Of a stretch of 64,000 nt of DNA, positions 30,458 through 57,424 are shown one piece after another. Source of the DNA: Methanolobus vulcani (lineage in GTDB: Archaea; Halobacteriota; Methanosarcinia; Methanosarcinales; Methanosarcinaceae). Position numbers and translations under genes: made by a program. Within the stretch, counting starts at the first letter, position 1. Each line of letters begins with the position of its first letter. Below the pieces are notes generated by a model, which was not told where the DNA came from, ran no database searches, and saw only the letters and a list, made by a program, of their open reading frames with translations. The DNA lies in contig NZ_VIAQ01000006.1 in the NCBI RefSeq assembly GCF_006546655.1, positions 1 to 64,000 on the forward strand, in the 5' to 3' direction.

Positions 30458-30484
30458 GGCCGGTTGTAAATCAGCGTGACTATA

Positions 30485-31327
30485 ATGACCGAAAAACCTA
30501 TCATTCAATTAAAAGGAGTATCCTATTTTTACGCAAGCAGCGAGACAAAAGCTCTTGATAATATTGATCTTGACTTTTATCCCGGAGAAAAGATAGCAAT
30601 TCTCGGAGCAAACGGAGCTGGCAAATCTACTCTTTTCAGACATCTCAACGGCATATTGAAACCTGCTGCAGGAGAAGTTCTTGTGAAAGGAGAAAACATT
30701 TCTAAGAAAAATATCAGGACGGTGCGCCAGACTGTAGGAATAGTTTTCCAGAATCCTGACGACCAGATTCTTGCACCTACAATTGAACAGGACATTGCTT
30801 TTGGACCCATAAACATGGGTCTTGATGAGGAAGAGGTTGAGAGAAGGGTAAAGAAAGCCCTGGAACTGGTAAACCTTTCCGGTTTTGAGGAAAGATCGCC
30901 CCATCACCTTAGTGGAGGGCAAAAAAAACTCGTGGCTATTGCAGGGGTACTTGCAATGCAACCGGAAGTGGTTGTACTTGACGAACCAACAGCAGGACTT
31001 GACCCCCAGAGTGCCGAAAACATCATGAAGATCATCGATGGCATGAACAAGGAATTCGGCATAACTATTATCCTTTCAACCCACGATGTTGACATTGTGC
31101 CTCTTTTTGCAGATAGGGTATATGTCATGCATCACGGAAGGATAGAAGCCAACGGGACTGCAAAAGAGATATTCAAAAATCATCAGTTGCTTAAAAATGC
31201 ACATCTAAGGATGCCACGCATTGCAGAAGTATTTGAGCTACTTCAGGAATCCGGTTTTGATGCTGATATAAAAATCACACCACCGGATGCAAGAGACGAA
31301 GTAATCCGACTCATAAATGAGAAATAA
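30485..31327 (+). CDS. cbiO: ECF transporter ATPase for cobalt/nickel
   Basis: This 280-residue ABC ATPase energises an energy-coupling factor transporter. Motifs: Walker A GANGAGKST (about 39-47), Q-loop VFQNPDDQI (about 87-95), signature LSGGQKKLVAIAG (about 142-154), Walker B VVVLDEPTAGLDP and switch STHDVD. The C-terminal 60 residues form the extra ECF/CbiO domain. ATG 30485 has GTGA six bases before it; a GTG nine bases upstream is the longer alternative. cbiQ follows 11 nt later. The membrane subunits cbiM and a PDGLE protein lie just beyond on the opposite strand, so this set is split over two convergent transcripts. Confidence 0.93.
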   Translation: MTEKPIIQLKGVSYFYASSETKALDNIDLDFYPGEKIAILGANGAGKSTLFRHLNGILKPAAGEVLVKGENISKKNIRTVRQTVGIVFQNPDDQILAPTIEQDIAFGPINMGLDEEEVERRVKKALELVNLSGFEERSPHHLSGGQKKLVAIAGVLAMQPEVVVLDEPTAGLDPQSAENIMKIIDGMNKEFGITIILSTHDVDIVPLFADRVYVMHHGRIEANGTAKEIFKNHQLLKNAHLRMPRIAEVFELLQESGFDADIKITPPDARDEVIRLINEK

Positions 31328-31338
31328 AAGGCCTGCCC

Positions 31339-32145
31339 ATGAAGATCACACTTAATGATATTGAAAGGGAAGCATACAGGGACAGCCCGGTCCACAGGCT
31401 TGATGGAAGAGTAAAGATACTTACAACACTTGCCATTATCATTTTTGCCGTCAGCCTCCCGCGCATGGACGAGGCTAATTTCACAAAGCTTGCAATCCTA
31501 GAAATTTATCTTATTCTCCTGATGGCAGTTGCAAGACTTAACCCGCTCTACACCCTCATGAGATTTCTCTCAATATTGCCATTCGGGGTTACTATTGTCC
31601 TGATTCAGCCTTTTGTCAGGCAGCCTTTTATTGAAACATTCACCGTCTATCCGGTAGAACTTCCACTTGGAATAACTGTGACATATGAAGGTATAACATT
31701 TGGTCTCATACTACTTGCCAAGTACATTGTCTGCATTACGGCCATTGTCCTCATGTCATCCACAATGAAGATGAACGACATGGTCAGCTCTGCAAGAAGA
31801 CTTGGAATGCCGGCAGAATTCACACTTATCCTGTCAATGATGGTAAGGTACCTTTTCGTATTCTGGATAATTCTCAAACGCATAAGGGTTGCGCAGAAAA
31901 CACGTCTGTTCTACCTGTGGAATAAAGACGTGCCACGCAGATGGATTCTTGAGCAAGTCGCACATACCATCAGTTCTTTGTTCATTCGTTCTTATGAACA
32001 GGGAGAGCGCACCTACATCAGTATGCTATGCAGAGGATATTCCAGTGCCAATAAAATATACGTTCACAAAGACAAAATAAAAATAAGCGATATATTGTTT
32101 TCGATATTAACAATTGGAACAATGATCATGGCTTTTGCAGCCTGA
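31339..32145 (+). CDS. cbiQ: ECF transporter transmembrane protein CbiQ
   Basis: This 268-residue T component connects substrate protein to ATPases. Membrane segments include LTTLAIIIFAVSL, FLSILPFGVTIVLI and DILFSILTIGTMIMAFA. The coupling motif of the family is visible as SARRLGMPAEFTLI (about 153-166), and RSYEQGERTYISMLCRGY (about 218-235) holds the second conserved Ala/Cys-Arg-Gly element. RBS and ATG at 31339 follow cbiO by 11 nt. The downstream convergent terminator ends both this and the PDGLE gene. Confidence 0.92.
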   Translation: MKITLNDIEREAYRDSPVHRLDGRVKILTTLAIIIFAVSLPRMDEANFTKLAILEIYLILLMAVARLNPLYTLMRFLSILPFGVTIVLIQPFVRQPFIETFTVYPVELPLGITVTYEGITFGLILLAKYIVCITAIVLMSSTMKMNDMVSSARRLGMPAEFTLILSMMVRYLFVFWIILKRIRVAQKTRLFYLWNKDVPRRWILEQVAHTISSLFIRSYEQGERTYISMLCRGYSSANKIYVHKDKIKISDILFSILTIGTMIMAFAA

Positions 32146-32167
32146 AATGGAAATTAAAAAAGAGAAA

Positions 32168-32190
32168 GAAAAAGAATTTAGTTCTTTTTC
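32168..32190. terminator. Bidirectional terminator hairpin
   Basis: GAAAAAGAA (32168-32176) and TTCTTTTTC (32182-32190) form a 9-bp stem with loop TTTAG. It lies between convergent cbiQ and the PDGLE gene and its arms are A- and T-rich on both strands, so it can terminate in both directions; it overlaps the last codons of the PDGLE gene. Confidence 0.55.
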
Positions 32191-32492
32191 GCTGCTTTTC
32201 CTAATACAAAACTGATACCAAGTACAAGAATGGTACCTGCAACAACTGCAGCTACCTCACCCATCTTGCCCTGTCCCTCAATTGCATAATCGGGCATTGG
32301 AGACTCTACAAAAGGAGCAGATTCTTCCATAGTAGAGTATGTGACTTCATCGATTAAGCCTCCTGCTGCGCTTTCAAGACCATCCGGGTCTGAAGATGCA
32401 AGGAAAGGAGCTGCAATGGCAATCAGTAAAGCAATTACAATTCCCGCATAAAGGAATTTCATGTTCATATTGGAATTTGCTGTCACACTCAT
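32178..32492 (-). CDS. PDGLE-domain small membrane protein (NikN/CbiN-like)
   Basis: This 104-residue protein has two membrane helices: FLYAGIVIALLIAIAAPFLA near the N-terminus and VAAVVAGTILVLGISFVLG at the C-terminus, with SSDPDGLESAAGG (about 33-45) between them on the outside. The PDGLE motif defines the small accessory subunit of nickel/cobalt ECF transporters (NikN or CbiN type). Its ATG overlaps the cbiM stop (ATGA), so the two are translated together. The remainder of the loop is acidic and could help bring metal to CbiM. Confidence 0.85.
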   Translation of the reverse strand: MSVTANSNMNMKFLYAGIVIALLIAIAAPFLASSDPDGLESAAGGLIDEVTYSTMEESAPFVESPMPDYAIEGQGKMGEVAAVVAGTILVLGISFVLGKAAKKN

Positions 32493-33139
32493 GCCCTCAC
32501 ACCTTTGGCCTTTGTAACTGATGAATCAAGCAAATCCGGTCTTGACTTTTCAATTGCTGTGATCACAATTGCTGTAATAAGTCCTTCACCGATAATACCG
32601 ATTATCAGGTGATATAGACCCATTGTTGCAAGTCCCGCTACAAGAGGGAACGTGCCTGCAATTGCCATTTCCACAGAACATACAAGTGCGGAAACAAGAA
32701 GACCGATCCATGCGCCGACAAAAGCTGCAGCTTTTATATCTACCTTACTCTTCAGAGCTGCAAACAGATAGTAGCCCACAAAGCCAGAGACAACACCCAT
32801 GTTAAAGATGTTTGCACCCATTGTTGTGATGCCCCCATCACCAAAGACAAAACCCTGAACCAGAAGCACAAGTGTAAGTACAAGAACACCTGCAAACGGA
32901 CTTCCAAATATAATGGAAACAAGGACAGCACCGACCATGTGGCCGCTGGTACCCATTCCGATTGGAATGTTCAATGCCTGTATAGCAAATATACCTGCTG
33001 CAAGAGCAGCAAGAATTGGTATTTTCATATCATCAAGTTCTTTACGAGCCCATTTAAGGGACATAAATACAAAAGGCAGGGCAATCACCCAGTAGACAAT
33101 TGCCTGTCCCATTGGTATAAAGGAATCTGGAATGTGCAT
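32489..33139 (-). CDS. cbiM: ECF substrate-binding component CbiM/NikM (first set)
   Basis: This 216-residue S component binds cobalt or nickel. The N-terminus MHIPDSFIPMGQ carries the metal ligands Met1 and His2, and His67 sits in GTSGHMVGA, the third ligand known from NikM structures. Six to seven membrane segments follow. Most relatives read MHIPDG; here it is MHIPDS. ATG is at 33139 after AGGATTTATA. It is co-translated with the PDGLE gene and complements cbiO-cbiQ converging from the left. Whether it prefers Ni or Co cannot be read. Confidence 0.92.
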   Translation of the reverse strand: MHIPDSFIPMGQAIVYWVIALPFVFMSLKWARKELDDMKIPILAALAAGIFAIQALNIPIGMGTSGHMVGAVLVSIIFGSPFAGVLVLTLVLLVQGFVFGDGGITTMGANIFNMGVVSGFVGYYLFAALKSKVDIKAAAFVGAWIGLLVSALVCSVEMAIAGTFPLVAGLATMGLYHLIIGIIGEGLITAIVITAIEKSRPDLLDSSVTKAKGVRA

Positions 33140-33366
33140 TATAAATCCTCATTAAATTGTAATTAATAATAACAAGAATGTTGAAATTATTAACACGCGT
33201 GAATATACAATAAGGAGTACATAAACATAACGAGTTAACACTGTGAAAAATATTATTACACAACTGGAACTGTTGAAAATCAAATAATATAAGAAAGAAA
33301 ATAATAGAATGATAAAAGGAAAAGAAGAAATGTAAATGATATTGTTGATTTTATCAAAATCCAATA

Positions 33367-34275
33367 TCAATGCCTGTAACTCGCTATTATTTCATTCACC
33401 AGAGAATGAGTGTTTTCATCTACCGTGAGATACAATTCCCCTTCAAGTGACTCGATCATTTTTGTCATTACTGTGACAGATTCATCTATCGACATAGGAG
33501 TCTGGCTGCAATCTGCACCAAAACACCTCATGATCTTAAAGAACTTGAACAGGTCAGGAGCATCCAGATTGTTCTCTTTTACAAGAACCGGATCTGAAAA
33601 TATATCTCTTGGAGTTCCCTCAGCTACTATTGTCCTGTTCAGGACATAAACCCTGTCTGCAAGATCTGCAAGTGCATTTACATCATGCATTGCTATTACG
33701 GTGGTGACACCTTCGTTCCTGTTCAGGTCATTGATCACTCTGATCAGATCAGCCTTGCTTTTCGGATCAAGGTTCGCCGTAGGTTCATCGAGTATAAGGA
33801 CCCTTGGTTCCATAGAAAGCACTGCTGCAAGAGCGGCTTTTTTCTTCTGTCCGAAACTCATGTGATGAGGAACTCTTTCCTCGAATCCTTCAAGACCGAC
33901 AGTTGCAAGAGCTTTTTTAACCCTTCTGCCCACTTCCTCCTCACTAAGTCCCATGTTCAGAGGACCAAATGCCACATCATCATAAACCGTTGACATGAAT
34001 AACTGATCGTCAGGCTCGGCAAACACAACCCCTACCTCCTTTATTCTGTCCTCGACTTTCATGTCTCCGATGCTACTACCGAATATTTTTACATTACCAT
34101 CATCGGAACGGATAATACCGTTAAGATGAAGGAAAAGAGTTGTCTTTCCGGCACCATTCGGACCCATGATGACAATCTTCTCACCCTGCTCTACCTCAAT
34201 ATTGACATCATCCAGTGCTTTTGTGCCATCAGGATAAGAATAATTCAAACTAGTAATACTTATAGCTTTTTTCAT
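33367..34275 (-). CDS. cbiO: ECF transporter ATPase for nickel/cobalt (second set)
   Basis: This 302-residue ATPase is the last gene of the cbiM-nikL-cbiQ-cbiO set. Motifs: Walker A GPNGAGKTT (about 38-46), VFAEPDDQLFMST Q-loop, signature MSFGQKKKAALAA (the usual SGG is SFG), Walker B VLILDEPTANLDP and MHDVNALAD. Start ATG overlaps the cbiQ stop. It is about half identical to the first CbiO by eye. The C-terminal domain (PDLFKFFKIMRCFGADC onward) is as in other ECF ATPases for metals. The SFGQ form is typical of CbiO. Confidence 0.92.
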   Translation of the reverse strand: MKKAISITSLNYSYPDGTKALDDVNIEVEQGEKIVIMGPNGAGKTTLFLHLNGIIRSDDGNVKIFGSSIGDMKVEDRIKEVGVVFAEPDDQLFMSTVYDDVAFGPLNMGLSEEEVGRRVKKALATVGLEGFEERVPHHMSFGQKKKAALAAVLSMEPRVLILDEPTANLDPKSKADLIRVINDLNRNEGVTTVIAMHDVNALADLADRVYVLNRTIVAEGTPRDIFSDPVLVKENNLDAPDLFKFFKIMRCFGADCSQTPMSIDESVTVMTKMIESLEGELYLTVDENTHSLVNEIIASYRH

Positions 34276-35036
34276 AATAATGACATCTCATACATTTTGA
34301 ATATCAAAGCAATACCTACCAGAAACGCCACCAGACAATAATCTGTCATCTGCATTTTAAATTTTACAATGGTTCTGGATTCTCCTGTATAACCTTTTGA
34401 GGACATAGAATGATGGACACGTTCAGCTCGTTCACAACTCCTGACAAGAAGCATACCAACTATATTACCTACGACTGAAAGAGAATGTTTATTTGCTTTT
34501 AACTTAAAGCCTTTGGAAGTCATTGCGGTCCACATACTAATGAATTCATCAATGAAGACAAAAACATACCTGTAAGAGAACATCAATGTCTGAACCAGGG
34601 GAGCAGGCACCTTCAACGAGTAGAGTGATTTCATCGTTACATCCATTTTTGTTGTTCCGAGCATGGTTAAAGCAAACATTATTGAAGTTGCTGCCCTGAC
34701 AAATACCAGGATACCATAATAGACACCCTCATAAGTTATGTTCAAACCATAAATAGAAAATAATACATTGCCTTCCACGGCAAATGGCATTATTACCAAA
34801 AAAGGGAAGACAAAGATCAAACCGGGTTTCATTCTGTCGAACATAAATCCCAGAGGAATCTTTGACAAAAGCAAAATGAAGAAAGAAAATAACAGGGTTA
34901 AAAATGCAACCCCGAGGTTTTCTATAAAAACAAATGAAAAAATAAGCAGGGTGAAAGTAATTATTTTAGCCCTTGGATCAAAACGATGAATCACAGAATC
35001 AAGTTCTGCGTATTTGTCGATCTCAGGATACTTCAT
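34272..35036 (-). CDS. cbiQ: ECF transporter transmembrane protein CbiQ (second set)
   Basis: This 254-residue T component has five membrane segments (FTLLIFSFVFIENL, LTLLFSFFILLL, FVFPFLVIMPFAV, YGILVFVRAATSIMFALTML and the C-terminal YCLVAFLVGIALIF). Coupling elements are SLYSLKVPAPLVQT (about 136-149) and RSCERAERVHHSMSSKGY (about 204-221). The start ATG at 35036 lies 15 nt after the NikL-like gene. The stop overlaps cbiO. Confidence 0.9.
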   Translation of the reverse strand: MKYPEIDKYAELDSVIHRFDPRAKIITFTLLIFSFVFIENLGVAFLTLLFSFFILLLSKIPLGFMFDRMKPGLIFVFPFLVIMPFAVEGNVLFSIYGLNITYEGVYYGILVFVRAATSIMFALTMLGTTKMDVTMKSLYSLKVPAPLVQTLMFSYRYVFVFIDEFISMWTAMTSKGFKLKANKHSLSVVGNIVGMLLVRSCERAERVHHSMSSKGYTGESRTIVKFKMQMTDYCLVAFLVGIALIFKMYEMSLL

Positions 35037-35051
35037 CCTACTTACGCCTCT

Positions 35052-35486
35052 TTACTGCTTTTTCTTTGCGGTATAGATCATTGCAATACCTGCAAGTCCC
35101 AGAAGATATCCAAAACCTGTGAATATCCTCATGAAGAGAGGGAGTTCAGCTGTTTCGGCGCTGCCGCCTGTCGCACTTATAGTGGCTTCTCCCATATGAC
35201 CAAACTGGTCAACTACCACAGTATACTGAGTGACGTCTTCAACCGGAGTAAAACTTAAAAAGCCATCCTCATCGGTCTCACCTTCATAAAGGACCTCTTC
35301 GGAGTCTGCATTGAGTATCTGGTATTCTGCAAGTCCCATTGGAGAATCGCCTTCATAGAAAGCTTTGACGACTATCTCATCCGCACCGACCTGCTCCACA
35401 TAACACCTGTGTGCAGATGCAGCCGGCATAAGTGATATGCTCAGGATTAAAAGTATTGCTATAGTGATTAATCTGGTGGATCTCAT
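35052..35486 (-). CDS. nikL: NikL-type accessory component of a nickel/cobalt ECF transporter
   Basis: This 144-residue protein has a signal peptide (ITIAILLILSISLMPAASA) and a mature start at HRCYVEQV, then a single Ig-like or carboxypeptidase-regulatory-like domain (YEGETDEDGFLSFTPVEDVTQYTVVVDQFGH), and a C-terminal membrane helix (GFGYLLGLAGIAMIY). This is the layout of NikL/CbiL-type periplasmic-facing subunits. The histidine right after the likely cleavage site could bind metal. It overlaps the cbiM stop (ATGA). The paralogue at 37987-38442 shows the same features. Confidence 0.85.
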   Translation of the reverse strand: MRSTRLITIAILLILSISLMPAASAHRCYVEQVGADEIVVKAFYEGDSPMGLAEYQILNADSEEVLYEGETDEDGFLSFTPVEDVTQYTVVVDQFGHMGEATISATGGSAETAELPLFMRIFTGFGYLLGLAGIAMIYTAKKKQ

Positions 35487-36109
35487 TTGTTGTCCTCCTT
35501 ATCAAGTGGAAGAAGTTCTGGTTTTACCTTTGCCAGGTATGCTACTACTGAGGCAGTTATTACTGCTTCGATTACCATTATGACCATGTGTGGGATTATT
35601 ACAAGCTTTGCCATCATTTCAAATTGTTCACCTGCAGTTATAAGTACCAGTGCAAGGAACACTGTGGTCAGGAGTATTGCCAGACCTCCGCAGATACCGC
35701 CAATGACAGGCTTTGAAAGTCCCATTGCAGAACCTTTTCTGAAAGCCACATAACTGATCAGAGCAGGAACACCTACGTTGAAACTGTTTATCCCTATCGT
35801 GGTTATGCCTCCATGCTGGAACAATAATGCCTGAAGAACCAGACCAATGAACATTGCAGGATATGCAAGTGCACCAAGTACTACACCCAGCAGACCGTTC
35901 AGAATAAGATGTACGCTTGTGGGCGGTACGTTAATATGGATAAGTGAAGCAACAAAAAAAGCTGCTGTAAATACAGACAGTTTAGGTATCTGTTCTGCAA
36001 TACTGCCATGTTTTTGAGCCCACTTGAAAGAAAAGGCAATAAAAACTATAGAAACAATCCAGCCAAAGGCTATAACAGCTGGAGATAGCACACCGTCTGA
36101 AATATGCAT
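35483..36109 (-). CDS. cbiM: ECF substrate-binding component CbiM/NikM (second set)
   Basis: This 208-residue S component starts MHISDGVLSPAV, giving Met1 and His2, and has His67 in NVPPTSVHLILNG, matching the third ligand. Seven hydrophobic segments follow. The end reads LAKVKPELLPLDKEDNK. AGGAGAG precedes ATG 36109. It begins the operon cbiM-nikL-cbiQ-cbiO. It differs from the first CbiM in lacking the MHIPD motif, and two decayed copies of this same gene are found at 37558-37954 and 38447-38565. Confidence 0.92.
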   Translation of the reverse strand: MHISDGVLSPAVIAFGWIVSIVFIAFSFKWAQKHGSIAEQIPKLSVFTAAFFVASLIHINVPPTSVHLILNGLLGVVLGALAYPAMFIGLVLQALLFQHGGITTIGINSFNVGVPALISYVAFRKGSAMGLSKPVIGGICGGLAILLTTVFLALVLITAGEQFEMMAKLVIIPHMVIMVIEAVITASVVAYLAKVKPELLPLDKEDNK

Positions 36110-36130
36110 TATATATCTCTCCTTATAAAT

Positions 36131-36156
36131 AAAGAATAAGGGGTTTTATCCCCCTT
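36131..36156 (-). terminator. Terminator between the helical surface protein and cbiM
   Basis: AAGGGG (36138-36143) and CCCCTT (36151-36156) pair around TTTTATC. On the minus strand a T-rich ATTCTTTATT follows. It separates the upstream gene from the cbiM operon, which then has its own Shine-Dalgarno in AAGGAGAG. Confidence 0.5.
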
Positions 36157-36169
36157 TCATCTTTGGAAT

Positions 36170-37330
36170 TTATTCCCTTCTGAAAAGGCAAACTGCACCA
36201 AAGATACCTGCGACTGCCATTGCAATCTCAAAACCAGGAGTACTGCTCTCTGTTGACGTAGATGAAGCCTCAGAGTCCCCTGTTGCTGTTTCTACGGATT
36301 CAGCTTCTTCTTCTGGATAAAGGGCAGCTTCAAGCTTCTCTCCTTTCTTCTGAATCTGTAATGCTTCATACTCTATCTTGTGTACAGCATCGTGGGTTGC
36401 TTCTGCATGTGCAAGATATGGCTCTTCCAGCTCAAGTATTGTGTGAACAGCTTCATCGTGGCTTGTAAGTTCATCAATGATTCCCTGTGCATGTTCATCG
36501 ATCTCGCTGACCTTGTTTTTAACAGCAGCTTCGTTTGCATCCGGATCTGCAGCAAGTGGTTTGAGTTCATCGATGCACTCAAGGATTGCCTCTGCTGCCT
36601 GTTCTACGGTATGGGATGAAAGATGTACTTCCTCTCCATAGTCTCTCCATTCCTGATCAAGTGCCTCATCGTCAGCAATGTACTCGGTCTCATCGTGGAT
36701 AGTTTCAGATAGCTCAACGATTTCATTTGCGAGATCTTCCATAGCTGATACATGTGTTCCTGCATCACCTTCAAGCGTTACACTTTCTGCAAGACCAAGA
36801 GCCTCTTCCACCTCTTCAGCGTGATCAATGATGTGGTTTGCGATTGAACCTGTTTCTGTAAGAGCATCACTGATAGATTCTGCATACTCCTGATGGGATT
36901 CAGGAGAATCATCCATTACCTTCTGAAGATCTCCGTCCAGGCTATCTATAAGTTCAAGTGCTTCTTCTGCATGCTCCATAATCTCATCGAGTGCGATTAT
37001 GATATCATCTTCATTTGTTTCAGGATCTTCAGCAAGCACTTTAAGTTCATCGGCATCCTCTTTGATAGCTTCTCCTATTTGCTCGATTTCATGAGAGGAC
37101 TGGTGGATAGCTTCACCGGCAGCCCTTAAATCGTCATCAAGAGACTCATCATCTGCAATATTCATGGTTTCATCGTGGATAGTTGTAGACATCTCTACGA
37201 GTTCTTCTGCGTGCTCGATTACCTCATCAATTGCTTCACTTGCATCTTCGCTTGCAGATGCAGGGAACGCACTTGCAACCATCAGGACAGTTGCCAATAG
37301 TGCAACAATAAATACTTTTTTAATATTCAT
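36170..37330 (-). CDS. PGF-CTERM-anchored His/Glu-rich helical repeat protein
   Basis: I know no named family for this 386-residue surface protein. It has a signal peptide (FIVALLATVLMVASAFPASA), two long copies of a helical repeat (about 30-185 and 200-350), and a C-terminal PGF-CTERM signal (TPGFEIAMAVAGIFGAVCLFRRE). Each copy has TIHDET, IADDE, EAIHQSSHEIEQ or EVHLSSHTVEQ, then EIMEHAEEAL or EIDEHAQGII. It is rich in Glu/Asp with many His spaced on helices, as in metal-binding or helical sensory domains. Its position next to nickel/cobalt importers supports a surface metal-binding role (inference). AGGAAGGTGAG precedes ATG 37330. No enzymatic motif is seen. Confidence 0.75.
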   Translation of the reverse strand: MNIKKVFIVALLATVLMVASAFPASASEDASEAIDEVIEHAEELVEMSTTIHDETMNIADDESLDDDLRAAGEAIHQSSHEIEQIGEAIKEDADELKVLAEDPETNEDDIIIALDEIMEHAEEALELIDSLDGDLQKVMDDSPESHQEYAESISDALTETGSIANHIIDHAEEVEEALGLAESVTLEGDAGTHVSAMEDLANEIVELSETIHDETEYIADDEALDQEWRDYGEEVHLSSHTVEQAAEAILECIDELKPLAADPDANEAAVKNKVSEIDEHAQGIIDELTSHDEAVHTILELEEPYLAHAEATHDAVHKIEYEALQIQKKGEKLEAALYPEEEAESVETATGDSEASSTSTESSTPGFEIAMAVAGIFGAVCLFRRE

Positions 37331-37986: not shown

Positions 37987-38442
37987 CTACTGAGTCTTTG
38001 ATTTCCTTGATGAGAAATACAGCGCCATACCTGCGATTCCGAAGATATATCCAAAGCCTGCAATAATCCTTGCAGTCAGTGGCAGTTCCGCATCTGCAGT
38101 GTCCCCTACCGCATCGCCTGTCAGACTGAATGTTTTTTCTTCCTTGTGACCAGTTTCAGAAACTTCTACCCTGTATTCCGAAACACCAAGCTTCGGAGTG
38201 AAATAATACAGACCATCTGAATCGGTCTTATCCTCTATATAAACTTCTTCCTCTCCATTTTTGATAGCATATATCACAATATCTGCACCTGCCATTGGAT
38301 CCCCGCCGCCGAACCAGGCCTTTATCTCGATCCCGGTGATTGACTCCTGAACATACACACGGTGAGCAGAAGCTGCCGGCATACAGGCAATCAGGACTAT
38401 GCCTAACAATACCATAATTTTCATTATTTTTAAAGAATCCAT
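37987..38442 (-). CDS. nikL: NikL-type accessory component (second copy)
   Basis: This 151-residue protein is a paralogue of the NikL-type gene at 35052. It has a signal peptide (MVLLGIVLIACMPAASA), a mature start HRVYVQE, an Ig-like domain (DKTDSDGLYYFTPKLGVSEYRVEVSETGH), and a membrane helix (GFGYIFGIAGMALYF). The frame is open to 38529 but GGGAGG lies nine bases before ATG 38442, which is the likely start. The gene is intact while the cbiM genes on both sides are not, so it may be recruited by the remaining importer or be in the process of being lost. Confidence 0.82.
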   Translation of the reverse strand: MDSLKIMKIMVLLGIVLIACMPAASAHRVYVQESITGIEIKAWFGGGDPMAGADIVIYAIKNGEEEVYIEDKTDSDGLYYFTPKLGVSEYRVEVSETGHKEEKTFSLTGDAVGDTADAELPLTARIIAGFGYIFGIAGMALYFSSRKSKTQ

Positions 38443-38446
38443 AATT

Positions 38447-38565
38447 TCAAACCTCCCTGTCCAGTAATAACAACTCAGGCCATACATTCCGGATGAAGAA
38501 AACCAGTGTAGTAATCCACCCTGCAACAATTACCGGGAAGAACATACACCTTCTGAAATATGCAT
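38447..38565 (-). pseudogene. Short cbiM remnant (N- and C-terminal ends only)
   Basis: The minus strand begins MHISEGV (ATG at 38565) as in cbiM, then shifts frame, continues as PVIVAGWITTLVFFI (cf. PAVIAFGWIVSIVFIAF) and jumps to VWPELLLLDREV, which matches the functional C-terminus VKPELLPLDKED. The whole middle of the gene is missing. It lies five bases in front of the second nikL start, as the functional cbiM does. Confidence 0.8.
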
Positions 38566-38693: not shown

Positions 38694-39665
38694 TTATTCT
38701 TTCCTCATTATTGTGTAGAGAGCACCGAGTATACCAGCAAGGGCTACTGATGCAATGAATCCAGGTGCACTTGCACTTGCTGATTCATCAGAGGATGCTT
38801 CACTTTCTTCAGCTACAGCTACGGTTGTAACGGTTGCAGCCTTTGCAGGGAATGACTCCAGAACAGGAACAATGAATACTCCTCTTACAGGCTGTCCATC
38901 TTCAGGTTCCATGGTTGCACCGACAAACCAGATACCAGGCTCATCAAGGGTGTAAACGAAGTCTCCTGCATCGTTGGACTTTGTAAGCCTTGTGAAAACC
39001 ATTGGTGCATCGTATGGGTACATCTCTTCTGCTGCTTCGACAATTTCAATACCTTTCTCAAGTGTGTGGTATATCTCTACTTCCACATCAGCACCTGTGA
39101 GAGCTTCACCATCGGAAAGTGCCTTACCTGCAAAGACAAATCCTTCTTCCATGCCGTATGGTCTCATGTATGGAATGATTTCAGTGCCCTGGCCAACTTC
39201 AGCATCCCAACCCATCCACATTTCTTCACCACAGTGAATTACAGCTTTGGTGCAGTCTACCATATCCTCTTCCTCATCTTCATATATTACAGAGATGACC
39301 GAGTCGCCCATCTGGTCAACTGTGAATGATGTCTTGTAAGCAAGGAAAGTTCCCAGATTACCGTCTTCATCCTGTCCATCGATAGTTACTTCCTCAACTG
39401 TAAGATCTTCTACAGTTCCGTCCGGCTTTGTAACAGATACCACAGGAACATTGGACATATCAAAGATTATGTGCTCGTAAGGGTGACCCCACATGATATA
39501 GACATCTTTTGTGTCACCAAGTTCTGCAATATAATCCTCAGGAGATATATCCCATACACTGTCTGCGCTATCACTTGGGAAAACCATTGTGAAGTGAGCG
39601 CTTCCAATACCGACGGAACACAAGAGCATTCCAATAAACAATAAGCTCAAAACAAATTTTCTCAT
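38694..39665 (-). CDS. DUF4198 metal-uptake-related surface protein with PGF-CTERM
   Basis: This 323-residue protein belongs to the DUF4198 family, which is linked to nickel and cobalt uptake. A signal peptide (MRKFVLSLLFIGMLLCSVGIGSA) is followed by the mature start HFTMVFPS; the family begins its mature form with His. The body has GHPYEHIIFDMSN (about 60-72), the MWMGWDAEVGQGTEIIP loop, and an Ig-like repeat (TRLTKSNDAGDFVYTLDEPGIWF). A Ser-rich linker leads to the PGF-CTERM anchor (APGFIASVALAGILGALYTIMRKE). AGGAGA precedes ATG 39665. With the helical surface protein it makes two anchored candidates for extracellular metal capture. Confidence 0.85.
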   Translation of the reverse strand: MRKFVLSLLFIGMLLCSVGIGSAHFTMVFPSDSADSVWDISPEDYIAELGDTKDVYIMWGHPYEHIIFDMSNVPVVSVTKPDGTVEDLTVEEVTIDGQDEDGNLGTFLAYKTSFTVDQMGDSVISVIYEDEEEDMVDCTKAVIHCGEEMWMGWDAEVGQGTEIIPYMRPYGMEEGFVFAGKALSDGEALTGADVEVEIYHTLEKGIEIVEAAEEMYPYDAPMVFTRLTKSNDAGDFVYTLDEPGIWFVGATMEPEDGQPVRGVFIVPVLESFPAKAATVTTVAVAEESEASSDESASASAPGFIASVALAGILGALYTIMRKE

Positions 39666-40090
39666 TATTAATCTCCTACCAACATAATAGAATTACCTCC
39701 TACACAGTAACACTAAATAAATAGTTTGTGTTATTTTAGTAATGCAATATTATTTTTTGTAAGATTTAATTAGATAAGATAGAATATTAGTCATAATGCA
39801 GAATTGAGCTTTCTGGAAACTTTATAATAAAAATATTATTTTTTGAATAAATACCTAAATTAATACTACCATAATCTTGGGAAACTGTCTGGAGAAGTCT
39901 GAGAAGCATAAAAGAAGAAAGAATATGATATGAAATAATGGTGATAATTAGGGATTCTGATTATCAGGAAAGTAACTTCTGTATAGATGTTGCTGTATCG
40001 GTAATAATTCAATTGAAAGTGAAATAGAATAGAGAAATCCGAGTATGGCACAAAAAATAAAAGGCTTTTTCATCAACGGACTTACTAAGC
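39666..40090. other. AT-rich intergenic region without a gene
   Basis: Over these 425 bases I see no coding pattern; the only longer frame (39866-40051, minus) is low-complexity and has no ribosome binding site. The left end holds the promoter of the DUF4198 gene: AAACTATTTATTTAG on the minus strand at about 39714-39728, and the leader with two AGGAG-like sites. The right end is the 3' side of the nicotianamine synthase-like gene, with a short A/T-rich run. Confidence 0.6.
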
Positions 40091-40945
40091 TTAGGACCTG
40101 GCAGCAGATGATTTGACCGCAAATACAACAGTATTGTTAACCGGGGGCTGCGGGTGAATCCTGCAGGATTCATTAAATTCATCGGCTATGTTTGCAGGAA
40201 GGTCAACAAGGATGCTCCTGTCAAGTAATCTCCTAAGACCCTTTTCATATATCCTGCAGGATACCTTTGTACCTGCTGGAAGTGCCTTTGCCAACTGCTC
40301 AATAATCTCTTTTTTGGGTTGGGCCTGACCAGCTATCATGATAAGCTCCACCCTCTCACTTAAAGGCAATTTGTAATGGTTTCCATGAATTATTTTAATG
40401 GAATTGGAAAGTCCCAGTTTATCCACCACCTTTCTTGAAAGTTCAACCCTCTGCTCATCCTGTTCGATACCAATACCTTTCAACCCATGCTGATGGCACA
40501 TTACCATCAAGGTCAAAGGTAAAGGTCCGCTTCCAAGGAATACGACCGTATCATTGGCTTTAAGCTCAGCTCCCTGATATTCAGTTTGTACCAGCTGGCA
40601 ATAATTAGGATAAAAAGAAAAATTTTGCAGCACCTGCCATGGATCATTACTGGCAAGTATAGTATTAGCATATTCGGTTTCAATCTTTATGGTATAAAGA
40701 GCTCTGAACGCGGCAATTGTGTCAAATAGCTGATTGAATCTGTAACCATTGAGAATAGCTTCTGCGGCTTCGTCTTCTATGGGTAGTGTGATCAGTTCAT
40801 CCAGTTTTTGATTAATATTTTTAACATAATTCGAATTACCCTGAAGTATATCTTCATCTTCAAGGTCCTTTATGGATAAATATATTTTTAGAATCTCATC
40901 GGTTATTGATTCTGCCGAATGACCTCTGATGCTACACACTCCCAT
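40091..40945 (-). CDS. Nicotianamine synthase-like protein
   Basis: This 284-residue protein matches the nicotianamine synthase (NAS) family, which joins aminobutyrate groups from S-adenosylmethionine to make metal chelators. The SAM-site motif VVFLGSGPLPLT (134-145) is the hallmark, with GIGIEQDEQRVELSR (157-171) forming the acidic loop and FSFYPNYCQLVQTEY (109-123) in the conserved pocket region. The archaeal enzyme MTH675 makes thermonicotianamine; bacterial CntL-type enzymes make staphylopine-like chelators. Its location beside nickel/cobalt transporters suggests a metallophore or intracellular nickel chelator. No partner opine dehydrogenase (CntM) is visible nearby. It is divergent from a radical SAM gene. 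Confidence 0.85.
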   Translation of the reverse strand: MGVCSIRGHSAESITDEILKIYLSIKDLEDEDILQGNSNYVKNINQKLDELITLPIEDEAAEAILNGYRFNQLFDTIAAFRALYTIKIETEYANTILASNDPWQVLQNFSFYPNYCQLVQTEYQGAELKANDTVVFLGSGPLPLTLMVMCHQHGLKGIGIEQDEQRVELSRKVVDKLGLSNSIKIIHGNHYKLPLSERVELIMIAGQAQPKKEIIEQLAKALPAGTKVSCRIYEKGLRRLLDRSILVDLPANIADEFNESCRIHPQPPVNNTVVFAVKSSAARS

Positions 40946-41061
40946 ATAATATTTTCATATTGAAGGTATATAAAAGGTTTCAATCGTGATTGTAGTTTTG
41001 TGAAGCAAATCTTTTTACATTATGTAAAGGTAAAAAGGAGAAACAATTCCGGATAATCTTC

Positions 41062-42036
41062 ATGGCCAAATATTCACCATTTATTGCTGCAAAAGCTGTC
41101 TGGCAGATGCACATCAAAAAACGTCCCTTTGTGCTGTCCCATGCTATCAATTCCAGATGCAACATGAAATGCTCATTCTGCGAATACTGGAAAACAGAAG
41201 GCGAAGAAATGGAACTTCAGGACATCTTCAAGCTTCTTGACGAAGCCAGAGACTTTGGAATCCTTGTATATAATGCCTGGACAGTAGAGCCACTTCTCAG
41301 AAAAGACCTTCCTGAAATTGTGGCTCATGCTAAAAGCATTGGAATGGTAACATCCCTCATAACCAACGGACTCTTACTTGAAAAACGGATAGATGAACTC
41401 ACAGACCTGGACTACCTTTCTGTTTCTGTTGATGGGACTTCCAGTTATAAGGATATCAGGGGAGTTGACCTTGATAGGATAATGCCTGGAATCCTTAAAG
41501 CAAAGGACAGGATTGACAACCCACTTCTTCTAAACTGCGTAATCAGTGGAAAAAATCTGGATGATATCGAAGAACTGATCACAATGGCAAAAGACCTTGA
41601 CGTGAAAATATCATTTGAGCCCATGTATGAATTCCAGGGAATAGAAACGGATACATGGGACCGAATGGGAATTCGTGATATCTCAAAGTATCATCAGACC
41701 GTAGACAGAATAATCGAGATGAAAAAGGAAGGCTATCCGATAATTAACTCTTATACATATCTTAAAATGGTCCGTGACCTGAAACCTGATTTTACCTGCC
41801 ATGCAAACGACATTATACTTGACGTCACAGCAGATGGCAGCATAGAGAACTGCAGAGTATATCGTGAACAACTGGGACACATCAACGAAGGTATTGCAAA
41901 CTTCTGGGAAAGGACAAGGGATATCCGAAAAGAGAAAGCACGTAACTGTCAAAAATGCCTGTTCTTTGGTTATGTTGAGAACAGCCTCATGTATAATTTC
42001 AATCCTGAGGTTGCAAGACATTATGAATGGATGTGA
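41062..42036 (+). CDS. Radical SAM protein with auxiliary cysteines
   Basis: This 324-residue protein has the radical SAM CX3CX2C motif at Cys33, Cys37 and Cys40 (RCNMKCSFC), TSLITNG and SVDGTSSYKDIRG in the barrel, and a C-terminal set of cysteines at 246, 264, 296 and 299 (TCHAN, ENCRV, NCQKC), reminiscent of a SPASM/twitch auxiliary cluster. It resembles HpnH- or MoaA-like archaeal enzymes of unknown substrate. ATG 41062 is preceded by AAGGAG. The gene is divergent from the nicotianamine synthase-like gene by 116 bases. No peptide substrate gene is visible nearby, so function is not assigned. Confidence 0.8.
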   Translation: MAKYSPFIAAKAVWQMHIKKRPFVLSHAINSRCNMKCSFCEYWKTEGEEMELQDIFKLLDEARDFGILVYNAWTVEPLLRKDLPEIVAHAKSIGMVTSLITNGLLLEKRIDELTDLDYLSVSVDGTSSYKDIRGVDLDRIMPGILKAKDRIDNPLLLNCVISGKNLDDIEELITMAKDLDVKISFEPMYEFQGIETDTWDRMGIRDISKYHQTVDRIIEMKKEGYPIINSYTYLKMVRDLKPDFTCHANDIILDVTADGSIENCRVYREQLGHINEGIANFWERTRDIRKEKARNCQKCLFFGYVENSLMYNFNPEVARHYEWM

Positions 42037-52822: not shown

Positions 52823-55800
52823 CGTAATTTCACTCCCGTTATACTTGTAATGTTATTTTCCTGCATTGCAACACCGATAGTGCGCTCTGCAGCTTCGATC
52901 ATTGGTTTTCTCAGGGACACAACAATGAACTGTGCATTCTTAACTGCCTTTTTCACACGCTGGGCAACTCTTCCGGCATTTGCTCCGTCAAGGAACATGT
53001 CAATCTCATCGAATGCATAGAAAGGTGCCGGCCTGTACTGCTGAATAGCGAAAACAAATGAGAGTGCGGTCAGACTCTTCTCTCCTCCGGACATCGCTTC
53101 AAGACGCTGAAGGGTCTTTTCCTTAGGCTGTGCCCTTAGTGTAAGACCGCCTGCAAATGGGTCTTCATAATTATCAAGAACAAGTTCTCCGATTCCATCA
53201 GAAAGCTCGTGGAATATTTCCTTGAATGGTTCGTTGATACCATTGTAGGTTTCCATGAAAGTGTCTTTTTTGAGCTGCTCATATTGTGCGATACGCTCAA
53301 GGATCTGTTCCCTTTCAGATGAGAGAGTGTCACGCCTGCTTACAAGCTCATCAAGTCTTGCTTCAACCTCATCATATTCATCAATTGCACGCATGTTAAC
53401 AGGTTCAAGGCGCTCCATTGCCCTTTCGATAGAAGCAATCCTTGTGCGCACAGTCTCATAATTAGGAACTTCCTCGGTTTCCTCGATACCACGCCTCTGG
53501 ATCTCTTCGGTAAGATCACTTACCTGCTCATCAAGGGCTTCCTTTGTTGCATTCAAAGCCATCATCTGCCTGTTGCCTTCATCAAACCTGGCCTTGAATT
53601 TATCAAATTCTTTCTTCAACGCAATATGTTCATCGTGCAAGCGGGTACGTTCCTGCTGCAACTCCTTAAGCTCATCAGCAAGTTCCATTTCACGCTGCTG
53701 CTTCTCCTTGAGAGATTCCTCAAGTTCAGTGATCTTGTCCTTAAGATCAGAAACGCGCTGCTTGTGAGTGCTCTTCTTCTCATCCATAGACTTGATGAGT
53801 TCCCTGTTCTCTTCGATCTTATTAGATGCATAATTGCGGTCAAGGTTCAGAGCATTAAGGGTGGATTCAATATCCCTCACACGACCATCCAGACGTCTGA
53901 TTTCCTCGTCAAGCTGCTCAGCCTGCCTGTTAAGTTCAGGAACCTCTGAACCTTCCAGTTTCTCTTCCAGAACCTCAATGTCCTTTTCAAGTGAAACAAC
54001 AAGTTCTTCCTGCTCCTGCTTCTTTGCCAGCGTTGCATCCATCTCAACTCTTAGTTGCTTGCGGGCTTCCTCGATCTCTGCAAGTTCGTTACTCTTTGCA
54101 TCAATAAGCTGCTCAAGACGCTCGCCCCTGCCTGCAATCTCCTCAAGCTGCATCTGTTTCTTGGAGATTTCTTTATCGTGCTCATGAATCTCACGGTTTA
54201 TCTGAGCAACATGCCCTTCAACCTGGTCCAGTTTCTTGATCGCATTGCTGCGCTTTGAATCCAGTTCGGTGATCTTTTCAGCGATTCTCACAAGCTTGTC
54301 CTTTTCAGATGCTGCAAATGAAAGACCGGCTTTCTGCTGCTGGGAACCTCCAACCATTGCACCGCTCTTCTCAATAACTTCACCTTCAAGAGTAACCATT
54401 CTTAAGCCCCCCATCAGGCGGCGTGCATTGGTAAGAGTGTCAACAATAAGAGTATCTCTGAAAACATACCAGAAAGCAGCTTCAAATTTATTATCAAAAT
54501 CTATAAGGTCTATGGCATAACCGATGACACCTTCCCTGTCAGAAAGGTCCTTGTACGGCCTGCGGGCTTCCATTTTGTTCAGTGGAAGGAAAGTTGCCCT
54601 GCCACCACGCCTTTGTTTCAGGAAAGAGATAGCTCTTGCAGCATCCTCATCATTTTCTACAACAACTGCCTGCATACGTCCGCCGGCTGCAATTCCCAGT
54701 GCATTGGAATACTTCTGGTCAACGCTACCAAGCTCTGCAATAGTTCCATAAATTCCTGGCAGACCATGGTGCTTCTTCTCATTCATTACCATGTCAACTG
54801 CTTTGGAATATTTACTGTGGTCTTCTGCTGCCCTGACACGAACCTCGATTCTGGCATAATCATTCTCATGCTTGCGAAGCTCGTCCTCAAATTCCTTAAC
54901 AATAACTTTCAACTGGGAACGTGTGAACTCAAGGTCATCCATGTCCTTTGTCAGGGCATCAATCTTCTCATTGAGTTTATCAATATCATATTCTACGGAT
55001 TTTGTGTCACTGCCTGAAGATTCTGCCTTTGATTTCGCATCAGCGATCTCGCCCTCGATATCCCTTGCTTCAACAGACTTTCTCCTCTGGGCATCAAGCA
55101 GGCGGTCTTCCTGGCGCATAAGCTCGTTTTTCTCATTCTTCACAGCTTCAAGCCGGGATTTCAGTTTGCTTAACTCATCACGGGTCTGTGCGAATTTAGC
55201 GTCCACATCAGCGATCTTACTTTGCAGAAGCATGCGTTCGGTCTTGCGCTCTGACATCTCAGCAAGGATGCTTTCCTTACGCATTGTCTCTTCAGAAATC
55301 TTAGAATCCAGTTCCTCAAGCTTGCCTTTAATCTCATCGATTTCCACAAAGGCCTTTCTTCGTCTGGATTCAACATCTTCCATTTCCTTTTCAGAAATCT
55401 CAATGGTGTCCACGCACCTTGAAACTTCACCACGGATACCCTCGATATCTTTCTTGATCTGGATCTGCTCATCCTCACCCATTCTCTGGATGTTCAGGGT
55501 CATTTCCTCAAGTTCCTGCTCCAGTTTATCCACAGCAACTCTCTTGGCCTCCAGGTCAACTTCCAGTTTACCAAGAACTTCCTCTTTTGCAAGAATATCG
55601 TCAGCAACATTTGTGAGTTCTACTTTGGCATCCTTCAGCTTTGCCAGCAAAACGAAACCTTCAAACTTCATTTTCTCTTCTTTAAGAGACTGGTATTTGA
55701 GAGCCTGGTCACGCTCGGTCTTTAGCTTTTCAAGCTGCTGACCTACCTCTTCAATGATAATATCAACCCTTTCGACTCTCTCACGCACAATCTCAAGTTC

Positions 55801-56343
55801 GCTGAGTGCCCTATCCCTCTTGCTGTCAAATTCAGCAACACCAGCAATCTCATCTATGATCTTACGCCTCTCACCAGGAGTCATATTGATGATACGGGTA
55901 ACGTCTCCCTGCATCACAACATTGTATCCTTCAGGAGTTACACGAGCCTTTGCAAGATAATTATGAACTTCAGTAAGGCTTACAGCCTTGCCGTTAAAAT
56001 AGAAATAACTGTAATAACCGGAATCAGTTTCCCTTATCTTTCTGGTGATGGAAATCTCATCTGCATCAACTGGCATTTCACGGTCAACATTATCAAACCG
56101 AATGGTAACCTGTGCAAAGTCCGGTTTTTTGGAACCCTCCCCATTATAGATAAGATCGGTGAGTTTTTCAGCTCTCAGGGTTCTGGAACTTGAAAGACCC
56201 AGCACAAAGAGAATACCGTCTATTATGTTAGACTTACCACTGCCGTTTGGACCGGATATCGTGGTGAAACCATCAAAAAAAGGTATCTTTACCTTTTTCC
56301 CGAAGGATTTGAAGTTTATAAACTCAAGTTCCTTGATATGCAC
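52819..56343 (-). CDS. smc: Chromosome segregation ATPase SMC
   Basis: This 1174-residue SMC forms the condensin ring. The N-terminal head has Walker A GPNGSGKSN (about 32-40), the first coiled-coil (170-490) and hinge (about 520-640, GLPGIYGTIAELGSVDQKYSNAL) with Gly-rich GGLRMVTLEGEV, then the second coiled-coil (680-1010). The C-terminal head carries the signature AMSGGEKSLTALSFVFAIQ and Walker B APFYAFDEIDMFLD. GTG 56343 is the start with AGAGGA six bases upstream. It is the centre of smc-scpA-scpB, overlapping scpA by TTGA. Length is usual. Confidence 0.97.
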   Translation of the reverse strand: MHIKELEFINFKSFGKKVKIPFFDGFTTISGPNGSGKSNIIDGILFVLGLSSSRTLRAEKLTDLIYNGEGSKKPDFAQVTIRFDNVDREMPVDADEISITRKIRETDSGYYSYFYFNGKAVSLTEVHNYLAKARVTPEGYNVVMQGDVTRIINMTPGERRKIIDEIAGVAEFDSKRDRALSELEIVRERVERVDIIIEEVGQQLEKLKTERDQALKYQSLKEEKMKFEGFVLLAKLKDAKVELTNVADDILAKEEVLGKLEVDLEAKRVAVDKLEQELEEMTLNIQRMGEDEQIQIKKDIEGIRGEVSRCVDTIEISEKEMEDVESRRRKAFVEIDEIKGKLEELDSKISEETMRKESILAEMSERKTERMLLQSKIADVDAKFAQTRDELSKLKSRLEAVKNEKNELMRQEDRLLDAQRRKSVEARDIEGEIADAKSKAESSGSDTKSVEYDIDKLNEKIDALTKDMDDLEFTRSQLKVIVKEFEDELRKHENDYARIEVRVRAAEDHSKYSKAVDMVMNEKKHHGLPGIYGTIAELGSVDQKYSNALGIAAGGRMQAVVVENDEDAARAISFLKQRRGGRATFLPLNKMEARRPYKDLSDREGVIGYAIDLIDFDNKFEAAFWYVFRDTLIVDTLTNARRLMGGLRMVTLEGEVIEKSGAMVGGSQQQKAGLSFAASEKDKLVRIAEKITELDSKRSNAIKKLDQVEGHVAQINREIHEHDKEISKKQMQLEEIAGRGERLEQLIDAKSNELAEIEEARKQLRVEMDATLAKKQEQEELVVSLEKDIEVLEEKLEGSEVPELNRQAEQLDEEIRRLDGRVRDIESTLNALNLDRNYASNKIEENRELIKSMDEKKSTHKQRVSDLKDKITELEESLKEKQQREMELADELKELQQERTRLHDEHIALKKEFDKFKARFDEGNRQMMALNATKEALDEQVSDLTEEIQRRGIEETEEVPNYETVRTRIASIERAMERLEPVNMRAIDEYDEVEARLDELVSRRDTLSSEREQILERIAQYEQLKKDTFMETYNGINEPFKEIFHELSDGIGELVLDNYEDPFAGGLTLRAQPKEKTLQRLEAMSGGEKSLTALSFVFAIQQYRPAPFYAFDEIDMFLDGANAGRVAQRVKKAVKNAQFIVVSLRKPMIEAAERTIGVAMQENNITSITGVKLR

Positions 56344-56368
56344 GTGATTCCTCTGTTTTTATGAAAGG

Positions 56369-57247
56369 TCATTTTCTTCGTGTGGTGGTCATTATTACCG
56401 CATCTTCATCTTCACGTGCCTCTACGGACTCGTAATCTGAATCTTCATTATTATCATTGCATGAAGCTGGCTTATCCTCTTCAGCAACAATATAATTGCA
56501 GGAGTCTCTTTCCTGACGTGATGTCCAGTTGAGTCTCATCTGGCGTTCGTCATCGGTTTCTGCAATAATATATTCAGACCTTGGTTCAGGTTCTGGCATC
56601 TCCGGCTGTTTTACAGTCGGAACTTCCCTCACATTAAAACGCATATTTGAGGATTGAGAAGTTGGGGGTTGTCTGGAAACAGGCTCCGGTTCTGCAGATC
56701 TGATGGATACTTTTGGACTTGACTGGCTTGTATAAGATACGGTTTCTTCAGGAACTGAGGGGGTTGACGGAGGAACCATCGATGAAAGTGATGCACTCTT
56801 AGGCGGAGAAGCATTGGCTGAAGCTGAAACCGGTTTAGGTTCCGGCCTGTAAACCCTGGGACTTGAGTATTCAACAGGTGCTGCCTCAGAAACTGGCTTT
56901 TCTACCTTGGGTGTTGGATTGGGTGTTAGATTAGATACCAGACTTGGTGTGGCTTTAGGCTCAGCTTTCCTTTCTTTTGAAACTGAAACCTCTTTCAGCG
57001 ACCTGATCATTGATTTCTGGTCAAGAAGCTCATCCATTATCCCGTTAAGATTACTGCTTATGGACTGGACCTTGCGTTCAAGCTGAGCTATGCGATTGTT
57101 AAAATCAAGGTCGTTCTTAAGATCGCTTCTGATCTCACGGAGTATAGACTCCCGGAGATTGGTTTTAATATCGTCTAATTCTGCTTCTTTTTCCTTGAGC
57201 TGCCGCTCAAGGCGTTCAATAACAAAGTCCCTGTTTTCAGTGTTCAT
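56369..57247 (-). CDS. Coiled-coil/proline-rich protein upstream of smc
   Basis: I do not recognise a family for this 292-residue protein. It has an N-terminal coiled-coil (about 1-85: ERLERQLKEKEAELDDIKTNL, RIAQLERKVQSISSNLNGI), a long Pro/Ser/Glu-rich stretch (about 90-215; LTPNPTPKVEKPVSEAAPVE, PPSTPSVPEE), and an acidic end with DDERQMRLNWTSRQERD. No membrane or enzyme motif is seen. It lies 25 nt upstream of smc and shares its promoter, so it may be a condensin loading or regulation factor. ATG 57247 with GCGAGG upstream is favoured; the frame opens at 57301 with GTG. It is not an Mre11-Rad50 relative by motif. Confidence 0.7.
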   Translation of the reverse strand: MNTENRDFVIERLERQLKEKEAELDDIKTNLRESILREIRSDLKNDLDFNNRIAQLERKVQSISSNLNGIMDELLDQKSMIRSLKEVSVSKERKAEPKATPSLVSNLTPNPTPKVEKPVSEAAPVEYSSPRVYRPEPKPVSASANASPPKSASLSSMVPPSTPSVPEETVSYTSQSSPKVSIRSAEPEPVSRQPPTSQSSNMRFNVREVPTVKQPEMPEPEPRSEYIIAETDDERQMRLNWTSRQERDSCNYIVAEEDKPASCNDNNEDSDYESVEAREDEDAVIMTTTRRK

Positions 57248-57424
57248 GAAAAGCCTCGCAAATCCATTCAGTCCCTCATCGCTGTTACGCGAAAATACCA
57301 CGTTATTATATGAATAAAAGTATAATATACCTTATGGTTGTCTCTTGTATTTTATTCAAGCAATAAATAATTATTTAATTTGATCTGCGTTTCAACGGTT
57401 TCAACGCATTTTATCGGGCAATTA

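Follow-up and report, generated by a model that had tools for sequence, protein, structure and literature searches.

The window analyzed here, a 64,000-nucleotide stretch of the Methanolobus vulcani genome, holds a nicotianamine synthase (NAS)-like gene, nas, at 40091 to 40945, adjoined by two Ni/Co ECF clusters at 30476 to 36109. The features of this locus, in order of their coordinates, are the following.

30476 to 32145, plus strand: second CbiO (30476 to 31327) and CbiQ (31339 to 32145), with 57 to 65% identical copies beside Methanosarcina NAS pairs
32178 to 32492, minus strand: small membrane subunit of the second cluster, with 62 to 67% identical copies adjoining CbiM2 in Methanosarcina NAS loci
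32489 to 33139, minus strand: second CbiM/NikM, a homologue of the first CbiM, 90 to 92% identical in sister species L215 and L216
33367 to 34275, minus strand: CbiO/NikO ATPase (PF00005, 106.6 bits; TIGR01166 over cutoff)
34272 to 35036, minus strand: CbiQ/NikQ transmembrane component (PF02361, 139 bits; TIGR02454 over cutoff)
35052 to 35486, minus strand: second NikL-like subunit (NF058648, E value of 4.4e-16, below cutoff)
35483 to 36109, minus strand: CbiM/NikM substrate-binding component (PF01891, 185 bits)
36170 to 37330, minus strand: PGF-CTERM surface protein (PF18204 over cutoff)
37987 to 38529, minus strand: NikL-like subunit, native copy (NF058648, E value of 1.4e-16, below cutoff; 75 to 79% identity to the nearest sisters)
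38694 to 39665, minus strand: DUF4198 protein (NikK-like) with a PGF-CTERM-like tail, native to the genus (PF10670, 92.4 bits; 84 to 87% identity to the nearest sisters)
39797 to 41003, no strand: insertion of ∼1.2 kb, missing from sister species L207 and L208 (from flank alignment, with boundaries good to a few tens of base pairs)
40091 to 40945, minus strand: nas, encoding an MtNAS-type NAS-like aminocarboxypropyl transferase of 284 amino acids
40601 to 40603, minus strand: codon of Y115, equivalent in alignments to the catalytic Tyr107 of MtNAS
40679 to 40681, minus strand: codon of E89, equivalent in alignments to the catalytic Glu81 of MtNAS
40978 to 40995, minus strand: what is left, upstream of nas, of a Methanococcoides-type cbiO 3' end (donor CTACAATCACCATTAAA versus window CTACAATCACGATTGAAA)
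41062 to 42036, plus strand: radical SAM protein beyond the insertion

The initial annotation had placed the product of nas in the NAS family on the basis of a motif and a pocket segment, and this placement is confirmed. By profile match, the open reading frame encodes a NAS (PF03059) family protein (121.8 bits against a cutoff of 27.1, covering profile positions 5 to 273 of 276), with the VVFLGSGPLPLT motif at residues 134 to 145, and it is the single NAS gene with a profile match in the whole 2.92-Mb assembly. A sequence search of the PDB was led by MtNAS (MTH675), the thermonicotianamine synthase of Methanothermobacter (PDB 3fpe to 3fpj and 3o31), whose chains 3fpe, 3fpg, and 3o31 gave E values of ∼1e-27 (1.3e-27 for 3fpe and 3e-27 for 3o31), versus ∼1e-8 for the staphylopine synthase CntL (PDB 7c9m and 7c7m). 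The comparison of a predicted structure with MTH675 and CntL, which had been proposed together with the annotation, led to the same order: the AlphaFold model (pLDDT, 89; pTM, 0.87), built with a 45-sequence alignment, has the NAS fold of a helical N-terminal domain and a Rossmann SAM domain, and a fold search with it returned MtNAS first (3fpg, TM of 0.83/0.89) and CntL second. MtNAS, an archaeal enzyme of the short form, is thus the best match by both sequence and fold, although it is only 26% identical to the window protein in the fold alignment.

Both catalytic residues of MTH675, whose absence had been named beforehand as speaking against such an enzyme, are present, with E81 and Y107 kept as E89 and Y115. 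The E81 position, which is mutated to Gln in structures 3fpg and 3fpj, is Glu in 88 of 90 aligned rows (the other two are gapped), the Y107 position is Tyr in all 90, and Y115 is invariant across the 45-sequence alignment. CntL shares the fold, the SAM domain, the catalytic Glu, and a link to metal transport with the window protein but carries Ile opposite Tyr107 and works with CntM. In Arabidopsis NAS1 (AtNAS1), E77, Y106, and the plant-specific E73 are all essential (PMC10248798); the window protein has equivalents of Glu77 and Tyr106 but Thr85, four residues ahead of E89, in place of Glu73. Given that the Glu and Tyr are both kept, that CntL has Ile at the Tyr, and that the plant E73 is a Thr, the nas protein is MtNAS-like, as the initial annotation had held, and neither CntL-like nor plant-like. 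We therefore rejected its identity as a staphylopine synthase (57.8 bits against a CntL model cutoff of 350, and the Tyr missing from CntL) or as a plant-type NA synthase, the diagnostic Glu of which is missing. Because of this Thr85, true nicotianamine is not the default guess for the product, and the starter substrate varies among NAS-family enzymes (PMC10248798). The lack of a CntM-like gene, noted earlier for the window, extends to the whole genome, where the CntM opine dehydrogenase model (PF10100) found no match at an E value of ≤1, so that an opine metallophore of the CntL/CntM type is not expected.

Next to nas lies a NikKMLQO set, in which CbiM, CbiQ, CbiO, and DUF4198 score over their Pfam cutoffs and NikL is significant but below its NCBIfam cutoff. 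From this gene content, the neighboring importer is predicted to be a NikKMLQO-type nickel ECF system, for nickel rather than cobalt. The true start of the NikL-like gene at 37987 to 38529 is probably downstream of the listed TTG, and the small membrane subunit at 32178 to 32492 is, as we infer, NikN/PDGLE-like. An inverted repeat, GTAACAC-N14-GTGTTAT, at 39707 to 39734 upstream of the DUF4198 gene (nikK) is largely kept in sister species and is a candidate operator for a metal regulator. An operator common to nas and nik was rejected, since the repeat is found upstream of nikK and none upstream of nas, and scans did not reveal a convincing enrichment. The radical SAM gene was likewise rejected as a pathway partner, being found in 26 of 27 genomes of the genus, nearly all without NAS. 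By inspection, the nas protein shows no signal-like N terminus, and no obvious exporter gene lies beside nas in the window.

The nas gene itself is an insertion at this site. In seven sister species, the DUF4198 and radical SAM genes are divergent neighbors ∼200 bp apart, and flank alignment with the two closest sisters shows 22 to 66 bp at the site between nikK and the radical SAM gene that holds ∼1.2 kb in the window. The stretch from 40101 to 40995 has 83% DNA identity to Methanococcoides nas together with ∼50 bp ahead of it, in which the final bases of cbiO are included. Identity to Methanococcoides at fourfold sites is 67 to 70% for nas, compared with 37 to 39% for ftsZ, 41 to 44% for DUF4198, and 33 to 34% for CbiO; dS is 0.54 to 0.61 for nas and 2.9 or at saturation for ftsZ. 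This low silent-site divergence, together with the cbiO remnant, means that nas crossed between the genera after they had split, out of a cbiO-nas operon. The same fourfold-site identities and remnant led us to reject vertical inheritance with loss in all sisters. The gene was thus gained horizontally at the nickel locus from a Methanococcoides-type cbiO-nas operon, and with a dN/dS of 0.18 to 0.21 against Methanococcoides, it is under purifying selection. A match over the NAS cutoff occurs in the window species only, and a full NAS in just 1 of 27 genomes of the genus, which makes NAS dispensable in the genus.

The adjacent CbiM, NikL, CbiQ, and CbiO are only ∼42 to 64% identical to the sister-species copies, whereas identity is as high as 87% for DUF4198 and 79% for the upstream NikL, which shows that the nickel locus has been remodeled. 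The block from 33367 to 37330, comprising the PGF-CTERM protein and CbiM-NikL-CbiQ-CbiO, looks foreign to the genus; at this site, the sisters hold other CbiM, CbiQ, and CbiO genes and have nikK and one nikL in common. The sole relative that we found of the PGF-CTERM protein is in the ANME-2 genome L067, where it adjoins a nik module.

Within the Methanosarcinaceae, 42 of 112 genomes match NAS. A scan of named genomes returned no match with a single protein as the query and yielded relatives with an alignment as the query. Identity to the window NAS was 78% in Methanococcoides, 48 to 60% in ANME-2 and related Methanosarcinales, 51 to 57% in ANME-1/Methanophagales, 43 to 57% in Methanosarcina, 48% in a Methanothrix MAG, and 41 to 47% in many sulfate reducers of the Desulfobacterota. 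Methanosarcina and sulfate reducers carry a second NAS paralogue, ∼26 to 32% identical to the window protein, as the tandem neighbor of the first.

When the neighborhoods of these genes were labeled with profiles built in this analysis, the position beside Ni/Co transporters pointed out in the initial annotation proved to be real and to recur across archaea and sulfate-reducing bacteria. Methanococcoides has the order DUF4198-CbiM-NikL-CbiQ-CbiO-nas, with a cbiO-nas gap of ∼33 bp, as does ANME-1 (in one case with several nas genes), while in ANME-2 nas is divergent from DUF4198-NikL-CbiM-CbiQ-CbiO. In Methanosarcina, a tandem nas pair lies between CbiM and a convergent CbiQ-CbiO, and ECF genes adjoin the nas pair in, among others, Desulfospira joergensenii and strain NaphS2. 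A locus was counted as linked, conservatively, only if an ECF component lay within 5 kb of nas and the surrounding stretch held two or more component types; this applied to 27 of the 59 loci from archaea and to 5 of the 23 from bacteria, where many contigs are short. Genomes of the class mostly carry two or three CbiM genes, and we estimate chance proximity at ∼1 to 2% per locus, a naive test of linkage being inflated by the relatedness of the genomes. Since there are at least five different gene arrangements, shared descent alone is insufficient to explain the linkage. In the ANME-2 family f3, only 2 of 9 loci are linked, and Methanosarcina also carries NAS copies away from ECF genes. Such a further copy, without CbiM or CbiQ nearby, is seen in Methanosarcina loci L034, L036, and L044 and their relatives, where it adjoins an ArsR-like HTH gene and is near a small secreted protein. 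The earlier proposal of an unmodified nicotianamine-type chelator used with ECF importers is thus supported with respect to the importers, the linkage being recurrent, but not with respect to unmodified nicotianamine, given the Thr at the AtNAS1 E73 position.

Other partners recur as well. The vicinity of nas repeatedly contains a class I SAM methyltransferase (Methyltransf_31/11/25) in Methanococcoides, Methanosarcina, ANME-2, ANME-1, and sulfate reducers. The closest homologue of this methyltransferase that the window genome encodes (C14:264698) is 44% identical to it and unlinked to nas. The sirohydrochlorin nickelochelatase of the F430 pathway, CfbA (152.5 bits against a cutoff of 120), lies 45 to 113 bp from nas in five ANME loci (L065, L068, L088, L089, and L090), between or adjoining the NAS genes, and recurs in named ANME contigs; this adjacency was seen in ANME only. 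In a few other loci, the neighborhood of nas contains the gene for methanogenesis marker 15. Downstream of the nas pair, sulfate reducers often have a PLP protein (Ala_racemase_N plus D-ser_dehydrat), a possible source of a D-amino-acid starter; this BhcC-like protein of ∼370 amino acids stands by the NAS genes at L137:9421-10533 and in 14 other sulfate-reducer loci. In the window species' own genome, contig C4 carries at ∼54180 to 61221 (L232) a NikABCDE/Cnt-like ABC importer, unlinked to NAS, with SAM methyltransferases on both flanks. Its permease is over the NF045470 cutoff, its binding protein is NikA-like but below cutoff, and it possibly imports nickel chelates.

In the reading that we favor, with a probability of roughly 0.55, a nicotianamine-type ligand built from SAM would serve nickel supply together with the neighboring NikKMLQO importer. 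The nas protein, predicted to be an active MtNAS-type aminocarboxypropyl transferase, would transfer a 3-amino-3-carboxypropyl group from S-adenosylmethionine, probably repeatedly, to an amino-acid starter, which by analogy with MtNAS would be glutamate, to give a small nicotianamine-type ligand. In the preferred mode, the importer would bring in Ni2+, and the ligand would bind and buffer it in the cytosol and pass it to nickel-using steps, e.g., F430 assembly.

A cytosolic ligand is more likely than a secreted nickelophore, because the nas protein has no signal-like N terminus and the locus no obvious exporter, because the CfbA gene next to nas in ANME suggests a step inside the cell, and because ECF S components are known to bind the bare ion. 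Export is rather unlikely but is the main alternative: the ligand would mobilize nickel that is held in sulfide or mineral phases, after which the metal would be freed at the surface by NikK/DUF4198 for the ECF importer or be taken back as a chelate through a NikABCDE-type ABC transporter. CntL-made staphylopine, which is secreted, sets a precedent, and the NikA/NikB-like importer with its flanking methyltransferases, if it imports nickel chelates, would favor a secreted ligand. The methanogens, ANME, and sulfate reducers with linked genes also have in common a sulfidic niche, where Ni2+ probably occurs bound as sulfide (PMC10617489). However, no exporter recurs with nas in the labeled clusters, and the NikA-like importer is unlinked to nas.

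Given how closely Cbi and Nik components are related, the metal may be cobalt instead, and nicotianamine binds many metals. It seems improbable, nonetheless, that cobalt, zinc, or iron is the main metal served by the ligand, or that the ligand protects against metal excess, with the ECF clusters as mixed Ni/Co systems. The curated models that match these ECF genes do carry cobalt names, but comparative studies assign NikK and NikL specifically to nickel (PMC2667541), CfbA inserts nickel, and a SAM-costly ligand sited with importers suggests need rather than excess. The variation in starter substrates noted above would also suit a SAM-derived product without a metal role or a different aminocarboxypropyl transferase, with the nik linkage as hitchhiking. 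This we consider very improbable, given that NAS is repeatedly linked to nickel import in several lineages that differ in gene order and that the horizontally gained window copy again sits at a nickel locus. Compared with the preferred cytosolic role, a broader proposal is more tentative, and we would put it at somewhat less than even odds: a nickel-dedicated pathway that combines at least one NAS paralogue with a SAM methyltransferase and a Nik ECF importer, and in ANME has CfbA alongside, may be common to methanogens, anaerobic methanotrophs, and sulfate reducers, move horizontally, and meet the nickel demand of F430 and further nickel enzymes under sulfidic conditions.

The enzyme itself is a member of a known family, and archaeal NAS genes have been mentioned as possible metal uptake genes in Methanobrevibacter genomes (PMC8485483; PMC10819710). 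Some bacterial CntL/CntM zincophore clusters also combine a NAS-like enzyme with PF13649/PF13847 methyltransferases (PMC7438024), but they contain CntM and importers of the FecCD or peptide type, in contrast to the ECF nickel importer without CntM described here. A 2009 survey listed only NikMNQO types for archaea and does not mention nicotianamine in its text (PMC2667541); the loci described here differ from the nickel ECF importers surveyed there in having NAS as a recurrent partner. Our search of the openly accessible literature found no paper on NAS with ECF transporters, on NAS in Methanosarcina, or on nicotianamine in Desulfobact- taxa, nor any description of the NAS-ECF-methyltransferase neighborhood (with CfbA in ANME), including that of sulfate reducers.

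F430, a nickel cofactor, is required for methane chemistry, and nickel uptake by archaeal methanogens has been described as unknown (PMC10617489). A SAM-made ligand with genetic ties to nickel importers and, among ANME, also to a nickel-inserting chelatase is a concrete candidate for a part in this uptake, and one that is testable in culturable Methanosarcina and Methanococcoides. The linkage pattern points to a little-studied way of nickel handling; if the proposal is true, nicotianamine-type metallophores would extend from opine and zinc systems to an opine-free nickel system of methane-cycling archaea and sulfate reducers.
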